Shown here piece by piece: positions 7,898-44,579 of a DNA stretch of 64,000 bases; within the stretch, counting starts at the first letter, position 1, and the number at the start of each line of letters is the position of its first letter. Position numbers and translations under genes: made by a program. The DNA lies in NCBI GenBank assembly GCA_025201365.1, contig JAIXMF010000009.1, positions 372,001 to 436,000 of the forward strand. Direction: 5' to 3'. The DNA comes from Syncephalis plumigaleata. Lineage: Eukaryota > Zoopagomycota > Zoopagomycetes > Zoopagales > Piptocephalidaceae. Below the pieces are notes generated by a model. That model made no database searches and was not told the DNA's origin. It saw only the letters and a list, made by a program, of their open reading frames with translations.

Positions 7898-8990
7898 TCA
7901 ACAGTATTCTACTCCATTATTACATGAGTGACTTGCCTTGTTATGTCCTGGTTCTATTGACATGATACATACAAATACGTACGAATAGTTTAGCTGATAT
8001 CTTTGTATTCAATTGACACTTCACTTACTTGTATAGACTGTCATAGTTGAAGTACACAATGAATTAGTGAGCTATTTCATCGTTTAATAATGTAACAACC
8101 ACTTACGCCATACTATTGTAATGAGAAATAAGCATGCATTTATACGATTAATGTACAATTCAATCCTGTGTTTAGTAAACTATCGGTATACTTTACGTAC
8201 CACCTAGCAATCATAGAGTACATTGTATTATTACATTGATCGTTAATAGTTAATACGTGTAACTTACCTTTTCCTATTGATGTTCATTTTAATACAATCA
8301 TTGAGTATTACTACTTTGATATAAGAACTTAAATCACTCGCTTACCATCTAGTAGTACAGAACGTAACAAGTAAGTACAACTATTACACATACGCATATT
8401 AATTGCTTACCATCTTCAACTAATAGTAAAAAGCAATAGCAACATATCATAATCGATTAGCGGGTCATAGTTAGTGTATACCTCGTCAACACTACTCACT
8501 CCAGGTACCGGCTAATTAATGGAATGTCATAGATATTAGTATGATTGAAACAATAATGCTAGTAGTACGTCTATACTCACGTGTCTCTATAGCAACAATT
8601 AATTTCGTAGAAAGAGATATATAGTGTAAGATGGCTTGTTGATCAGAGTAACGCTTGTATTACGACTTACGAGCTAATAAAATAACAGTAATAATGATAA
8701 TAATTTAGTCTTCCTAGCATCATGATAACGTAATCAATAAATGGCAAACTCACTTACCTGTATCGTTTTTATTGCAAATATTCATGATGCAATCGTCATT
8801 AGTGTATATCCTATTAGCGTGGCTACAATACTTACGATGTGTTACCGCTAGAATGCATGTTAGCTTAAATACCAATCTATTACATATACATACCCGTAGT
8901 ATCAGGGAGTGGACGGGCATTCGTCGTAGATCCCATTGTAATGGTCAATACCATTACCATAATGCAGGTGGATGCAATAGTAGCTTTCAT
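7898..8990 (-). CDS. secreted cysteine-containing protein encoded by a micro-exon gene
   Basis: Function unknown. Twelve coding exons read in order on the minus strand: 8894-8990 (97 nt), 8758-8847 (90), 8671-8673 (3), 8581-8586 (6), 8500-8511 (12), 8411-8419 (9), 8346-8348 (3), 8268-8273 (6), 8201-8203 (3), 8107-8112 (6), 8029-8037 (9) and 7898-7953 (56). All internal exons are multiples of three and every junction is phase 1. Micro-exons are flanked by YAG acceptors and GTAAGY, GTGAGT or GTACGT donors, and the introns after exon 2 are 62-88 nt. The 300 nt joined sequence has no internal stop and encodes 99 residues. Exon 1 gives a signal peptide (MKATIASTCIMVMVLTITMG, probable cleavage after STTNA). 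Exon 2 carries three cysteines (RKYC, NDDC, NICNK); the micro-exons add A, QT, PGTW and so on; the last exon adds HSC and EYC. The layout resembles schistosome MEGs and aphid bicycle effectors, but no sequence homology is claimed. No transcript evidence is available. Confidence 0.65.
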
Positions 8991-31023: not shown

Positions 31024-31558
31024 ATAGTGCATGACAATAGTTGAATTACGAGCGAGTAGATAAACGCCAGATTCTATATAGTAAACGTGGATACTTCTTT
31101 TTACTTGCACGCTATCACAACATATCAACTTTTAACTTGGTAACAATAATCACGATGATGATGACATTGTCTATAAATTATAAGAAACAGTGTCGGAAGA
31201 ATAATAGTACATGTGCCACCCTTGCTTTAATTATCTGTTACCTATTTTGCCACAAAATACATGTGCAACAAAGTATCTATAATAAGAAGTACTCATTTAT
31301 GTAAATGCAAACTATTTAAATAGACGGTCCAAGGACACTAAGAGAAATAACGCCACGATATTCAGAAAAGAAACTTTACCTCAAACCTTCCTATCTTGTT
31401 ATTCCCTCCAATAGTTCTAATCTCTCTATTTATCTTTTTGTCTCTTTAATATCTATAATATCTGCTAATAACGTGATGACCATTTATATCTAATTTATTT
31501 ATTGCTCAAGTTTACTATTTCTTTCTTTCTTTCTTTTTGTTGTCATTTGATAAGCAGT
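31024..31558. other. intergenic region
   Basis: Between tandem genes. A non-ATG 87-codon plus-strand ORF at 31041-31304 has no motif and was not accepted. A TTTC repeat (about 31518-31536) lies just before the next ATG. Confidence 0.45.
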
Positions 31559-34404
31559 ATGGCACCTGAAGTAGGTGCTAAAGCATTATTCCCCAATGCT
31601 ATGGGCGCTGTTATTCAAGAGGTGTACAATGTAAATCGTGATAAACATCGTAGTATCCGTATTACTATTGAGAATCATCATAGCACGCTTCGATTGTCGG
31701 GTGCGCGATTTCATTGCTATCAAAGTCGGTGTAAAGATGTGCCCAGTCATGTTATCGATGCTGCGTGTAGTCAGACCACGTATATTACATCTGCTGAACC
31801 TAACACGGCATGTACCGGTTATCTACTCTATCGAATACTCGATTGTCGACCGACACCACCGCAAGAGATGGAGTTATTCCTACTAATTATATGGGAGGTG
31901 CCAGTAATCGGTCCGAATCGTTGTCTACTAGAAGTGTTGCAAGCATCGGTCGGCTCACACTTGTTGCGCAGAGACGGCACGATAAAAGAGTTGGTGAAAT
32001 TTAGGCGAGAACACCGTCTCGTATCGACTACTCACGTCCAATGTCAAGGATGGCGCGTATCAGATAAGGCCTTCACTGCTATGGCCACTATGACAAATAC
32101 AGTTGATGCGAAACTCGAATTACGTATTACAAGCGTTGTGGAGGGTTCGACTAATCTGCTAGATTCACCGGAGCCTATTCCTTCAACGGGGTAAGTATCA
32201 CCGCGTTTGATCATAATAGTCATACCTATAAATCAGTCGATTAACTAGTTCTCATCTTTATTATTATTATTATTAAGTTTAATGGAACGAAACTTCAATA
32301 TAGATCCGTTACAATCCAATTCACTCTTACAAAATGGTAAGCATGATCATGTGTTACCTATCTAATAGTAGATGATGAGTATCTGAACCATGCTGTGTTA
32401 TGTCGTGTTATTTTCTAGACTCGTATTGCGGTATGCGGAAAAAGGCCAGTTTGACGATTCAGATCAACAATCAATCTCGTCAATTGTATCTGCGTCGTGC
32501 TCGTTTTCACATTAGAGATGGCAATGCAATGGATAATGCAATCGATGATGTTGAACCGAGACAACAATGCCTCATACCGCTAATGGCTCATCGTAAGCTT
32601 AAAGGCTTTCTCGTGTATAAGATGGACGACAAGCCAACAGGTGGTGATGGCAATGCTATCAAGTCGGATACAGCGGCTGCCTATCGTGATCATGGTCTAT
32701 TTCTAGTAATCGCCTGGTGTGTTCATCCTCGAAAGGGAAATCGTCTATGGGTGGACGTGGTTAGAGCGCGAGATGATATATTCCCGGGTAGCGATGCCTA
32801 TCTAGGCCAGTTCTACGATAGCTACATTCGCTACTTGCTTAGTGCATCGACACGACCCTCCACCTGGATGTCCAGTCATGGTGGTTGCTATCAATTCACA
32901 TCATTCATTGATGCAGGAATGCATAACATAGTATTGCCATTGAATATATGTGACGTATCATCCGATTTAACACGAGGAGAAGCACCATTATTCTTGCCTA
33001 ATTTAGGTATCGGGTAAGCATGATTGATTAGAACACAATTGTGGATTATTAACGTAGCTTGCAGGGTCACCATGAACAGCTCACTCGCGGAGATTACCGA
33101 TCTATTTGCACGGAAACTACACTGGAAGCAGCAGCAATTACTGCTTATTATCGAGAACACGCATAATGATCTTATATTGACGCCTATATGGCCTACAGAG
33201 AATATATCGCGACAGATTCATCAGGGTCGACACGAGATCTCGTCATTGAATCAATCGCGTCTTTTCTGGTCGAATGAGGGTATACGGGTGTACCAGCTCA
33301 TACAACGTCATCCTAAACTCGCCCCGCTCAATATCATCTACTTTCTGGTGGTGCGAGCCCGTGACACCGATATCAGTGTTGGTGTGATGGCAACATGGGC
33401 ATCCGCTTACAACGAGAGCTCCATCGACATGGACGCCATTGCCGACTACGTTCGTCGAGTGCCTAACATGAATCGATTGCCTATGGCACGACATATTCAG
33501 CAGGATATTCGTTTGAATAATGACACGCTATTCCAATTGACGGCTTTTCGCAATCTTACTATGCCATTTACCCTTACTCTTACCATAGGACATGCAAGTA
33601 GTCATCAGGTAGGAGAATCACTCGAGCAGACACATAACCAGTCGTGTATATCCTAACTGTGACTATTCTATTCTATTTTACGATAGATACATAATTGGCC
33701 GGAATCTCGTACATGGGCTATTCCTGGTGGTATGTATTGTTACTGCTACTATTATCATCATTGCTAGATACTAATGGTCTTATTGCTTAGCTGGATTATG
33801 GCGACCATTACAAGGTCATATTAACATGCCAATACCGCCAAAGCTACGTATCACCATGATTAACGATCATAATAATTTGAAGCTTGGTAGTGCACAAGTG
33901 TTTAGTACGGGTTATCATTTGGCCGCCTCGCCCGAAGTAACCTATCAACCATTGTCGAGATCGGTGTACAACTTCAATGCATTGCCTGCGAATGAGGAGC
34001 GTGATGTCTACCTGTTCCACACGTTGCATAATAATCCCAGTACGCTAGGTCTATGGTTTACAGTGCAAGCTCGTGGCACACTACTTGGCTATCGTGTCAG
34101 GTGCCAACTCGATGAAGCGGAGGTGGCATCGCTTGATATCCCGCTATCGACACCGTTACATAATGACACATCGTTACGCGAGCCGCATTCACCGCGTGAC
34201 ACCATCGCCTCGTTCCAGCAAGCGGATGGCTCCACCCTTTACGTGGCACTCTACGTGGGCAGTAGCATGAACGGCGAACGTACCGAATTGGTCGTTTGCT
34301 GGGCTGATCAACATGAAAAGGTGGAGGCATGCATTATTGCTTCTAATGGACGTTTACGCGCGTCTACACTAGGGACAAGCTCGTCATCCGATGCATCCTC
34401 CTAA
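31559..34404 (+). CDS. large protein of four tandem actinoporin-like beta-sandwich modules
   Basis: Function unknown. Exons 31559-32190, 32278-32336, 32419-33013, 33065-33608, 33687-33729 and 33791-34404 join in frame to 828 residues. I see four repeats of about 190 residues. Each opens with a beta strand pair of the form xIxIxNxxxxLxLxxARxH (SIRITIENHHSTLRLSGARF; SLTIQINNQSRQLYLRRARF; LLIIENTHNDLILTPIW; LRITMINDHNNLKLGSAQVF). Each then has a G-x-L/V-Y strand, a hydrophobic strand (ELFLLIIWEVP; GLFLVIAWCVH) and a closing strand pair. The opening NAMGAVIQEVYNVNRDKHRS before module 1 recalls the actinoporin N-terminus. No signal peptide follows the first ATG. The family assignment is a fold-level guess. 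No break was needed to read it, and it looks whole. Confidence 0.5.
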
Positions 34405-43064: not shown

Positions 43065-44579
43065 ATGTTAAATTATCACTTACGAATCAGCAACCTATTG
43101 CGTGGTAGCATTCCTTGTGGAATGAACCGCAATGCTTTAGCATGTAACCTAAATCGTCAATATTATTGTTTTCATAGACAGTTGAGAGGTTATACCAGCA
43201 AGGTAGCGTAGTAATCAGCGAGTGTTCCGTCATATTCATATTATAATGTTTAGTATACAGGATTATCGGATATATGGAAGCTAGACGTTGAAGGTGGACG
43301 TGGCGGCGATGGCTGCGTCAGTTTTGCACGGTCCGGTGGTAGCGCGACTCGTGGTGGCTCGCTACGTAACTTTGGACGACCATCGGGCGGTGACGGCGGA
43401 CAGGGCGGTAACATTTGGATTGAAGCGAGTAGCGATGTCAGCGATTTAGGCAGTGTAAGAACGCCATTGCTACGCGGAAAACGAGGACAGTCAGGACGTG
43501 GTGATATGGTACGCGGTAGGGATGCTGAAGACACCGTTATACGCGTTCCCCTTGGTACTGTAGTGCGTCGACTACCATTAGCCACGGTATTTGAACCCGA
43601 TGAACTTACCAAAGATGCGATGGAAGCTGCGCAGGGCGTAACCACGGAAGGAATGTCGATGGAACATGAAGACCTGAAGCCTTACTACGTCTTCTACCCG
43701 GGATGGGAGGATCGAGGCGAGATATTGGAATGGGAGCAACAGGCAGCGCGTACATCTCAGGGCAAACGACTCTTGGAACAGATTGGACGACGTCCTCCTA
43801 GTACACCGCCACCTTCTTCCTCTGATGTAGTGATTGATGTTTATGATATGCTAGAGCCTGGCCAGCGTATTCTCATGGCTACAGGTGGGCAGGGTGGTCA
43901 TGGCAATCGATGGTTCGCCATGCGTGATCGACCTCCAGCCAAGTTTGCCTCGCGTGGATTAGCAGGCGAACAATGTCGACTGGAGTTGGAGTTGAAGCAA
44001 CTGGCTCAGGTGGGACTGGTAGGTGCGCCGAATGTTGGTAAATCGACATTATTACGCGCAATGACACGGGCACGTCCGGCGGTGGCCAATTACGCATTTA
44101 CCACACTTCGACCGGGCATTGGTGTGCTTGAATTCGAGGATGGCCTACAAATACGTATTGCCGATATACCCGGACTGGTAGAGGGTGCAGCTCAAGATCG
44201 TGGATTGGGACTGACGTTCCTACGTCATGTGGAGCGTACGCGTCTCCTTTTGCTTGTCGTAGATCTCACATCAAACGAGCCATGGTGCGGTCTCGACACA
44301 TTGATCAGCGAGTTGTCCGCATATAAAACGGATTTACTACAACGACCCGCGTTACTCGTTGCCAATAAAGCGGATACACCACAAGCAAAACAAAACTGGG
44401 ATCAATGGTGGCGACCATTAGTAACGACATCGGAATCGAGCATGTCCAGTAAACTTCCCGGGCCATTAGCATCCATACAATTGAAGGACATCATTGCCAT
44501 ATCGGCATTAGAGCAAAAGAATACTGATCGATTAGCTCGTCGAATACGTCAATTAGTGACATCGGATGAGACACAGTAG
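43065..44579 (+). CDS. mitochondrial Obg-family GTPase (MTG2 type)
   Basis: An assembly GTPase of the mitochondrial large ribosomal subunit. Exon 1 (43065 to about 43197) encodes a basic presequence (MLNYHLRISNLLRGSIPCGM). Exon 2 (43261-44579) holds the glycine-rich Obg domain (VEGGRGGDGCVSFARSGGSA, PSGGDGGQGGNIW), then an acidic insert of about 90 residues. Next is the G domain: GAPNVGKSTLL (G1), FTTLRPGIG (G2), DIPGLVEGA (G3), NKAD (G4) and SA (G5). The exon 1/2 frame agrees only if the intron (43198-43260) uses a GC donor (GCAAGG). A GT donor four bases later, at 43203, would need one extra base. Confidence 0.88.

Follow-up and report, generated by a model that had tools for sequence, protein, structure and literature searches.

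Secreted-protein micro-exon genes are best known from schistosomes and aphids. Papers on these and other systems are cited here by PMC number, each from a partial text. Schistosome micro-exon genes (MEGs) have micro-exons of 6-81 bp according to the text of one account and 3-81 bp according to its abstract, mostly 15 bp, and introns of 0.1-5 kb (PMC10526429). In fungi, Trichoderma virens Xlr2 contains one regulatory microexon (PMC11121469), and KEX2-type proteases cleave at KR, RR or KK (PMC6339444). The genus Syncephalis is mycoparasitic and S. pseudoplumigaleata is an obligate mycoparasite; the partial text of that paper uses neither "intron" nor "exon" (PMC6784888). A search of the open-access literature, with most subscription journals outside its scope, found no fungal micro-exon gene family. 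An earlier sequence-only reading of the DNA analysed here knew of no description in fungi; this stands for gene families within that literature and has to be narrowed for microexons as such, Xlr2 being in print (PMC11121469).

We analysed a 64,000-nt stretch of the Syncephalis plumigaleata genome (the window) that carries a candidate gene of this kind. It is in our judgement highly likely that the locus is a real gene encoding a small, cysteine-containing protein that is secreted, and one instance of a micro-exon architecture widespread in this mycoparasite, in which tiny exons downstream of a leader exon would encode the mature peptide. The re-derived gene model joins 12 exons of the minus strand (8990..7898) into 300 nt with a single open frame of 99 amino acids plus stop (Table 1). 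Every junction is in phase 1 and nine consecutive micro-exons of 3-12 nt, all multiples of three, precede the last exon, which reproduces the structure first proposed, where no strand had been named. The introns measure, in order, 46, 84, 84, 69, 80, 62, 72, 64, 88, 69 and 75 nt; the range of 62-88 nt given for them earlier thus holds for ten and fails for intron 1. GTRMGY fits the donors of all nine micro-exons, and TAG or CAG occurs exactly once within 21 nt upstream of each, always at a distance divisible by three, in agreement with the acceptor and donor rule claimed at the outset. Two further donor-like sites in the same stretch do not fit, one at 8753 in the exon-2 donor region (CAG at 4 nt) and one at 7982 (CAG at 11 nt). 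With nine symmetric micro-exons, strong splice sites and short introns, the transcript would be spliced serially by intron definition.

The predicted protein begins with a hydrophobic leader whose hydropathy peaks at 2.98 over residues 9-17; the signal peptide, also postulated before, is called from hydropathy only, and its cleavage point was set by eye. Five cysteines lie past residue 24, the number previously assigned to the mature part, and the C-terminal end is HSCNNGVEYC. When skipping of the micro-exons was computed, the frame stayed open in 512 of 512 combinations, and the in-frame skipping suggested earlier is formally possible. The fungal part of the proposed convergent architecture is likewise borne out, the host being S. 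plumigaleata and the gene combining symmetric micro-exons with a predicted secreted, cysteine-containing product.

Table 1. Features of the window gene, in exon order, and of other loci. Locations without a contig name are positions in the window.
Feature	Location	Strand	Length	Details
Exon 1	8894..8990	-	97 nt	start codon, predicted signal peptide MKATIASTCIMVMVLTITMGSTTNA, phase-1 end, donor GTATGT
Intron 1	8848..8893	-	46 nt	re-derived model; below 62-88 nt
Exon 2	8758..8847	-	90 nt	three of the five mature-part Cys; donor GTAAGT
Micro-exon CTC	8671..8673	-	3 nt	model, donor/acceptor scan, frame-blind parser
Micro-exon AGACAC	8581..8586	-	6 nt	model, donor/acceptor scan, frame-blind parser
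Micro-exon CCGGTACCTGGA	8500..8511	-	12 nt	model, donor/acceptor scan, frame-blind parser
Micro-exon TTGAAGATG	8411..8419	-	9 nt	model, donor/acceptor scan, frame-blind parser
Micro-exon ATG	8346..8348	-	3 nt	model, donor/acceptor scan, frame-blind parser
Micro-exon GAAAAG	8268..8273	-	6 nt	model, donor/acceptor scan, frame-blind parser
Micro-exon GTG	8201..8203	-	3 nt	model, donor/acceptor scan, frame-blind parser
Micro-exon TATGGC	8107..8112	-	6 nt	model, donor/acceptor scan, frame-blind parser
Micro-exon TCTATACAA	8029..8037	-	9 nt	model, donor/acceptor scan, frame-blind parser
Last coding exon	7898..7953	-	56 nt	two further Cys and stop codon
Four successive open frames	31472-34404	+	~210-240 aa each	alike by eye; first frame scanned, no Pfam match
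Obg-like open frame	43254-44579			100% identical to an NCBI S. plumigaleata protein
L026	C1:1381800-1386000	-		leader-exon frameshift: pseudogene or assembly error
L033+L035	C362:301650-306600			predicted gene, 45 consecutive one-codon exons
L036	C1:2255300-2257500	+		small gene; predicted mature end SSCTRRRCYDD
L037	C1:2472700-2475300	-		leader exon with RR-bounded repeats, alpha-factor-type precursor-like, then 3-8 nt micro-exons and stop
Two similar arrays	C58:10437-12722 and C223:612325-614608			acceptors read as 6-nt exons; acceptor possibly shifted by one codon

Searches with the window protein against 5.8 billion proteins returned two candidates and no relative at E <= 10. The protein matched no Pfam family above the cut-off and no PDB entry, and DNA and protein searches of its own genome recovered only the window, apart from one weak match, and no paralog. 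There is thus no direct comparative support for the exons of the window gene. The Pfam family ThuA (E 0.027, 15.2 bits) lies under its cut-off of 33.4 and was rejected, as was a match on C13 (L005, E 0.03), which sits in an intron-rich gene that we take, by eye, to be FG-GAP-like; this match was ascribed to chance. Rfam gave no match at gathering scores anywhere in the window.

The genome search that the sequence-only reading had recommended, for further genes in which a signal peptide precedes a series of very short 3n exons, was strongly positive. The pattern GTAAGT-N50..80-TAG-N3..12-GTAAGT matched the genome 1,628 times (861+767) versus 289 (147+142) in reversed controls, and among the matches listed (the first, on C1 and C2) they group in arrays. 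A pattern for 3-nt exons with a branch-point-like CTAA (CTAA-N20..48-YAG-NNN-GTAAGT) gave 2,159 matches (1125+1034) versus 159 (88+71); matches do not equal distinct exons here, at least one exon being counted twice. The same pattern with a 4-nt exon matched 93 times (45+48) versus 201 in controls (88+113), and with a 6-nt exon there was no genome-wide excess (140 versus 134). A leader-exon pattern of 34 places, allowing up to three mismatches, matched 166 times (91+75) and its control not once (0+0), a count of leaders and not of arrays confirmed behind each. Some leaders may lie on contigs present in duplicate, as one rare variant found on both C186 and C362 suggests, and the number of genes may therefore be smaller. 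A 134-nt leader stretch was at least 91% identical in all 40 scored candidates (40 of 175), and an 80-nt consensus of the array introns has 174 matches in the genome at E <= 0.001.

Thirteen array loci were read (L026-L034, L036, L037, L039 and L040). Their leader exon ends in phase 1 and measures 94 nt in eleven loci, 91 nt in L026 and 253 nt in L037; in L033 it encodes MKFSAIIAIVVAVVALTSLVAVEASPVLDRR. In the main family, three micro-exons after the leader (3+3+5, 3+9+2, 3+9+5 or 9+9+2 nt; four in L028) shift the reading frame to phase 0, and past this point almost each exon is one codon. In this dominant family nearly every amino acid would accordingly have a phase-0, 3-nt exon of its own. 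Up to 45 single-codon exons follow in series between related introns of ~80 nt, as in L033, whose 45 consecutive one-codon exons contribute to the predicted peptide GLAKCNPINGSMDYVYWKPIVPGYWGPINPGLCCYRTPSMEKEECAPEKS-stop. L027, L030 (APQLGAVTGLGGKGGK), L031, L032, L034 and L040 are short members. The last exon of main-family arrays is short and contains a stop in frame (TAAGCA or TAAGCG; TGAGCG in L031).

Frame-blind parsing gave ten of the 13 loci (L027, L029-L034, L037, L039 and L040) a predicted prepropeptide whose frame, beginning in the leader, is uninterrupted until a stop in the terminal micro-exon; the L034 parse includes a doubtful 14-nt exon. No clean frame was obtained for L026 (exon-1 frameshift), L028 (one 2-nt unit) and L036, where the parse ended before the last exon, an ordinary one that holds the stop by eye. 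The parser was set by hand in places, namely the first donor for L037 and a raised longest intron for L028, L036, L039 and L040. In a tally of ten loci, which left out L026, L036 and L037 and took in L039 in part, 215 of 247 micro-exons were 3 nt long. The 203 3-nt exons past the third micro-exon use all 20 amino acids and contain no stop codon; 9.1 stops are expected by base composition (P 9e-5) and 4.1 by positional composition (P 0.015). Intron lengths are free of any such constraint, with 42, 57 and 60 introns at remainders 0, 1 and 2 modulo three (L026-L034). GC-AG introns occur among the micro-exons, TGG being followed by GCAAGT in L028 and L029 and CTG by GCAAGT in L037.

RR precedes the mature part in ten of 12 unbroken leaders; L029 has KRKR and L036 has none. 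Three of the four long loci (L028, L029 and L033) have in common the framework C ... W-x-P-x(4-5)-CC ... C with each residue on its own exon, and the fourth, L039, lacks the CC framework; these cysteines were taken from the parsed peptides, the peptide alignment having misplaced them. The leader, the dibasic site in most loci, the cysteine frameworks in some, the many copies and the strong divergence fit secreted peptides that would be used at contact with another organism, with cleavage presumably at the dibasic site before the mature peptide. Five introns of L037 score E < 0.001 against the array-intron profile. Downstream of the stop in L026-L029, L033, L034 and L037, a similar stretch around CATCATCAAGTAGATAT and GGTATTCAAGTC was noticed by eye; it looks like a shared 3' UTR of otherwise different genes.

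L030 and L031, which may be either alleles or paralogs, share 99% identity across a 194-nt stretch covering 5' flank and exon 1 and differ by whole units. A GGT unit is present twice in L030 and once in L031, and both L030 GGT introns are 100% identical to the single L031 one; conversely, a CTT unit is present twice in L031 and once in L030, the two L031 introns being 100% and 97% identical to the single L030 one. The introns of two GCC units in L027 are 95% alike. These comparisons show that the predicted intron-plus-codon units are gained or lost whole, which would keep the frame by construction. Through such duplication or loss of related units, peptides could grow, shrink or change one residue at a time at no risk to the frame. 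Kinship among the array introns was judged from consensus and profile searches, global pairwise identity being a poor yardstick: its mean is 70% within L033, and unrelated-looking introns reach 56-68%. A profile built from seven loci found 11 introns at E < 0.001 in L040, a locus outside the profile.

Proteins in NCBI allowed some of these predictions to be compared. An alignment of seven predicted array peptides matched 19 proteins, 13 of them named S. plumigaleata, and two of the 13 were compared with the DNA. P0121 comes from the L033 locus and contains 40 of 45 one-codon exons in order; P0126 comes from L039 and contains 33 of 35, giving 73 of 80 together. Five of the seven absent exons have non-GTAAGT donors, and the other two are indistinguishable from a neighbour encoding the same residue. 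The five L033 exons that P0121 omits mostly have non-GTAAGT donors, and some exons with such donors do appear in the two proteins. The models lack a stop or run into introns, and several others read into introns by eye. Given these faults and the frequent omission of non-GTAAGT exons, the models may be software predictions that are not based on transcripts, and we rejected them as transcript proof. Five short proteins from jgi and ena sources (P0135-P0139; E 1e-6 to 0.013) have a similar leader, and relatives of the arrays therefore seem to exist beyond the present assembly; four of the five have a tail resembling read-through into intron 1.

The anatomy of these genes allows alternative skipping as a possible source of isoforms. 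The chief competing view, to which we give about even chances, is that splicing is constitutive, with micro-exons arising incidentally from intron gain and unit duplication, and with the evolution of gene copies as the only source of diversity. Near-consensus splice sites at most micro-exons (GTAAGT at 38 of the 45 one-codon exons of L033), the whole-unit differences between L030 and L031 and the room that 166 leader matches leave for copy-based diversity all speak for it. Against it, the five missing exons with non-GTAAGT donors fit skipping; software bias would account for them equally well, and the omissions could be real skipping or a software limit. This view opposes the isoform part only, and its odds are not to be added up with those of the preferred explanation.

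A less likely origin for the architecture is intron invasion, in which repeated insertion of introner-like elements would have divided ordinary exons into micro-exons. The array introns are mutually related across the genome, and fungi are known to contain introner-like elements (PMC4457414), both in keeping with such invasion. However, the exact 3-nt spacing of up to 45 exons in series, the whole-unit duplicates of L030 and L031 and the close similarity of the L027 GCC introns fit tandem unit duplication better, and the introns of the window gene are unrelated to those of the arrays. When the window introns were compared with a profile of 155 array introns, they scored no better than background (best 3.9 bits), and kinship was rejected.

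In both the window gene and the arrays, the leader exon ends in phase 1 and there are tiny 3n exons between short introns with GTRMGY donors and YAG acceptors. The window leader differs from the MKFSA leader exon of the array family (L027-L034, L039 and L040), and in place of phase-0 single-codon exons the window gene has phase-1 micro-exons with one to four codons' worth of bases. With architecture in common but leader, phase, exon length and intron sequence not, the window gene is best regarded as a separate instance and no member of the array family. Among the loci read, L036 is closest to it in style, with phase-1 micro-exons of 3-6 nt and a short cysteine peptide at the end.

It is very improbable that the window gene consists of splice motifs threaded by a reader into an open frame of an AT-rich intergenic stretch, even though its protein lacks a homolog or paralog. 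GTRMGY occurs at 14.9 per kb on the minus strand of 8757-7954, versus 2.0 (plus) and 2.4 (minus) per kb over the whole window, a roughly sixfold enrichment over the minus strand. We defined a chain as successive units of YAG, an exon of 3-15 nt divisible by three, and GTRMGY, separated by introns of 45-110 nt. The longest chain is nine at the window gene, versus two in 200 kb of its contig (both strands) and two in 6 Mb of order-3 Markov sequence; 5,000 dinucleotide shuffles of the locus never exceeded three. When exons of any length from 1 to 15 nt were admitted, the values became 11 versus two, three and three. The frame-blind parser recovered the same nine micro-exons and split exon 2 differently, into 12 + 4 nt. 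A chain of nine units is not a chance product. The lone TAG or CAG at a 3n distance from each micro-exon donor and the excess of about 2,000 matches over control for 3-nt exons genome-wide, with none for 4-nt exons, argue in the same direction, and the gene model is very probably correct. Less likely still is a non-coding nature of the arrays, as satellites or as splice-signal decoys, a view suggested by tandem units of ~82 bp in which three bases between splice sites vary, and opposed by spacing at 3 and not 4 nt, the stop-free 203 codons, the hydrophobic, signal-like start of the leader, the retention of a terminal stop (TAA in most loci, TGA in L031) and the cysteine framework common to three of four long loci.

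The preferred explanation, a real window gene within a widespread micro-exon architecture, draws at the level of sequence on how the genes are built, on the departure from chance, on the restriction of array exons to 3 nt, on how large the leader family is and on the whole-unit difference of near-identical copies; it implies that such genes would be transcribed and spliced and their products secreted, with a possible role in host contact. A bolder possibility, which we consider less likely than not, is that a one-codon-per-exon system of S. plumigaleata uses skipping and intron recombination to produce secreted peptide libraries against a variable fungal host, and that the window gene is an independently built version with one to four codons per exon. 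If so, any codon could be skipped in frame, or recombination between related introns could add, lose or swap single codons. For a gene design in which almost each amino acid has a separate exon, no report in fungi was found in the open-access literature. At least two forms lacking a detectable relation in one fungal genome point to repeated invention in host-dependent organisms. A predicted series of up to 45 single-codon exons challenges ideas on the shortest exon that a spliceosome handles in series, and the arrays make residue-by-residue gene evolution through unit duplication testable. The NCBI models examined lack parts of the genes, and searches with the window protein found no match; families of this kind may thus go unnoticed in other genomes.

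Like schistosome MEGs, the window gene combines an N-terminal signal peptide with a run of short, mostly 3n exons, here nine of 3-12 nt; its product is secreted (here by prediction), has few conserved motifs beyond the signal peptide and is hard to annotate automatically (PMC10526429). Unlike MEG exons, mostly of 15 bp, those of the window gene measure 3-12 nt and those of the arrays mostly 3 nt, and the window-gene introns of 46-88 nt fall short of the 0.1-5 kb of MEGs and of their long-intron criterion (PMC10526429). The aromatic motif that the partial text of PMC10526429 places after the MEG signal peptide is absent from the window protein by eye. A further MEG trait is the production of isoforms through alternative splicing of central exons; in the window gene, all 512 skipping combinations would keep the frame open. 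MEGs belong to a different kingdom, and no sequence relation to the window protein was found at E <= 10. Aphid bicycle genes resemble the present genes in having a secretion signal, fast evolution and hundreds of paralogs per species, and in being identified by gene structure where sequence is insufficient (PMC13041983); the C-Y-C motif pair by which the partial text of that paper defines them has no counterpart in the window protein, where no C-Y-C was seen by eye.

KEX2-processed repeat proteins (KEPs) likewise have a signal peptide and dibasic cleavage sites, and L037 agrees with their definition, with a signal peptide (by eye) and at least three KEX2-bounded repeats, three RRDHVPPAAFRSLE and one RRDYILPPALSPLS, in exon 1 ahead of the micro-exons (PMC6339444). 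Unlike KEPs, the other array genes read carry one mature peptide and no repeats, and repeats and an RR site are both absent from the window protein (PMC6339444); "exon" occurs zero times in the main text of that paper as far as it was available. T. virens Xlr2 offers the likeness of a functional microexon in a fungus, but a single one in a transcriptional regulator, versus micro-exon runs in predicted secreted proteins here (PMC11121469). The array introns finally resemble fungal introner-like elements as related spliceosomal introns multiplied in a fungal genome; unlike those invasive introns, they stand in tandem at 3-nt spacing, with a codon in each unit (PMC4457414).
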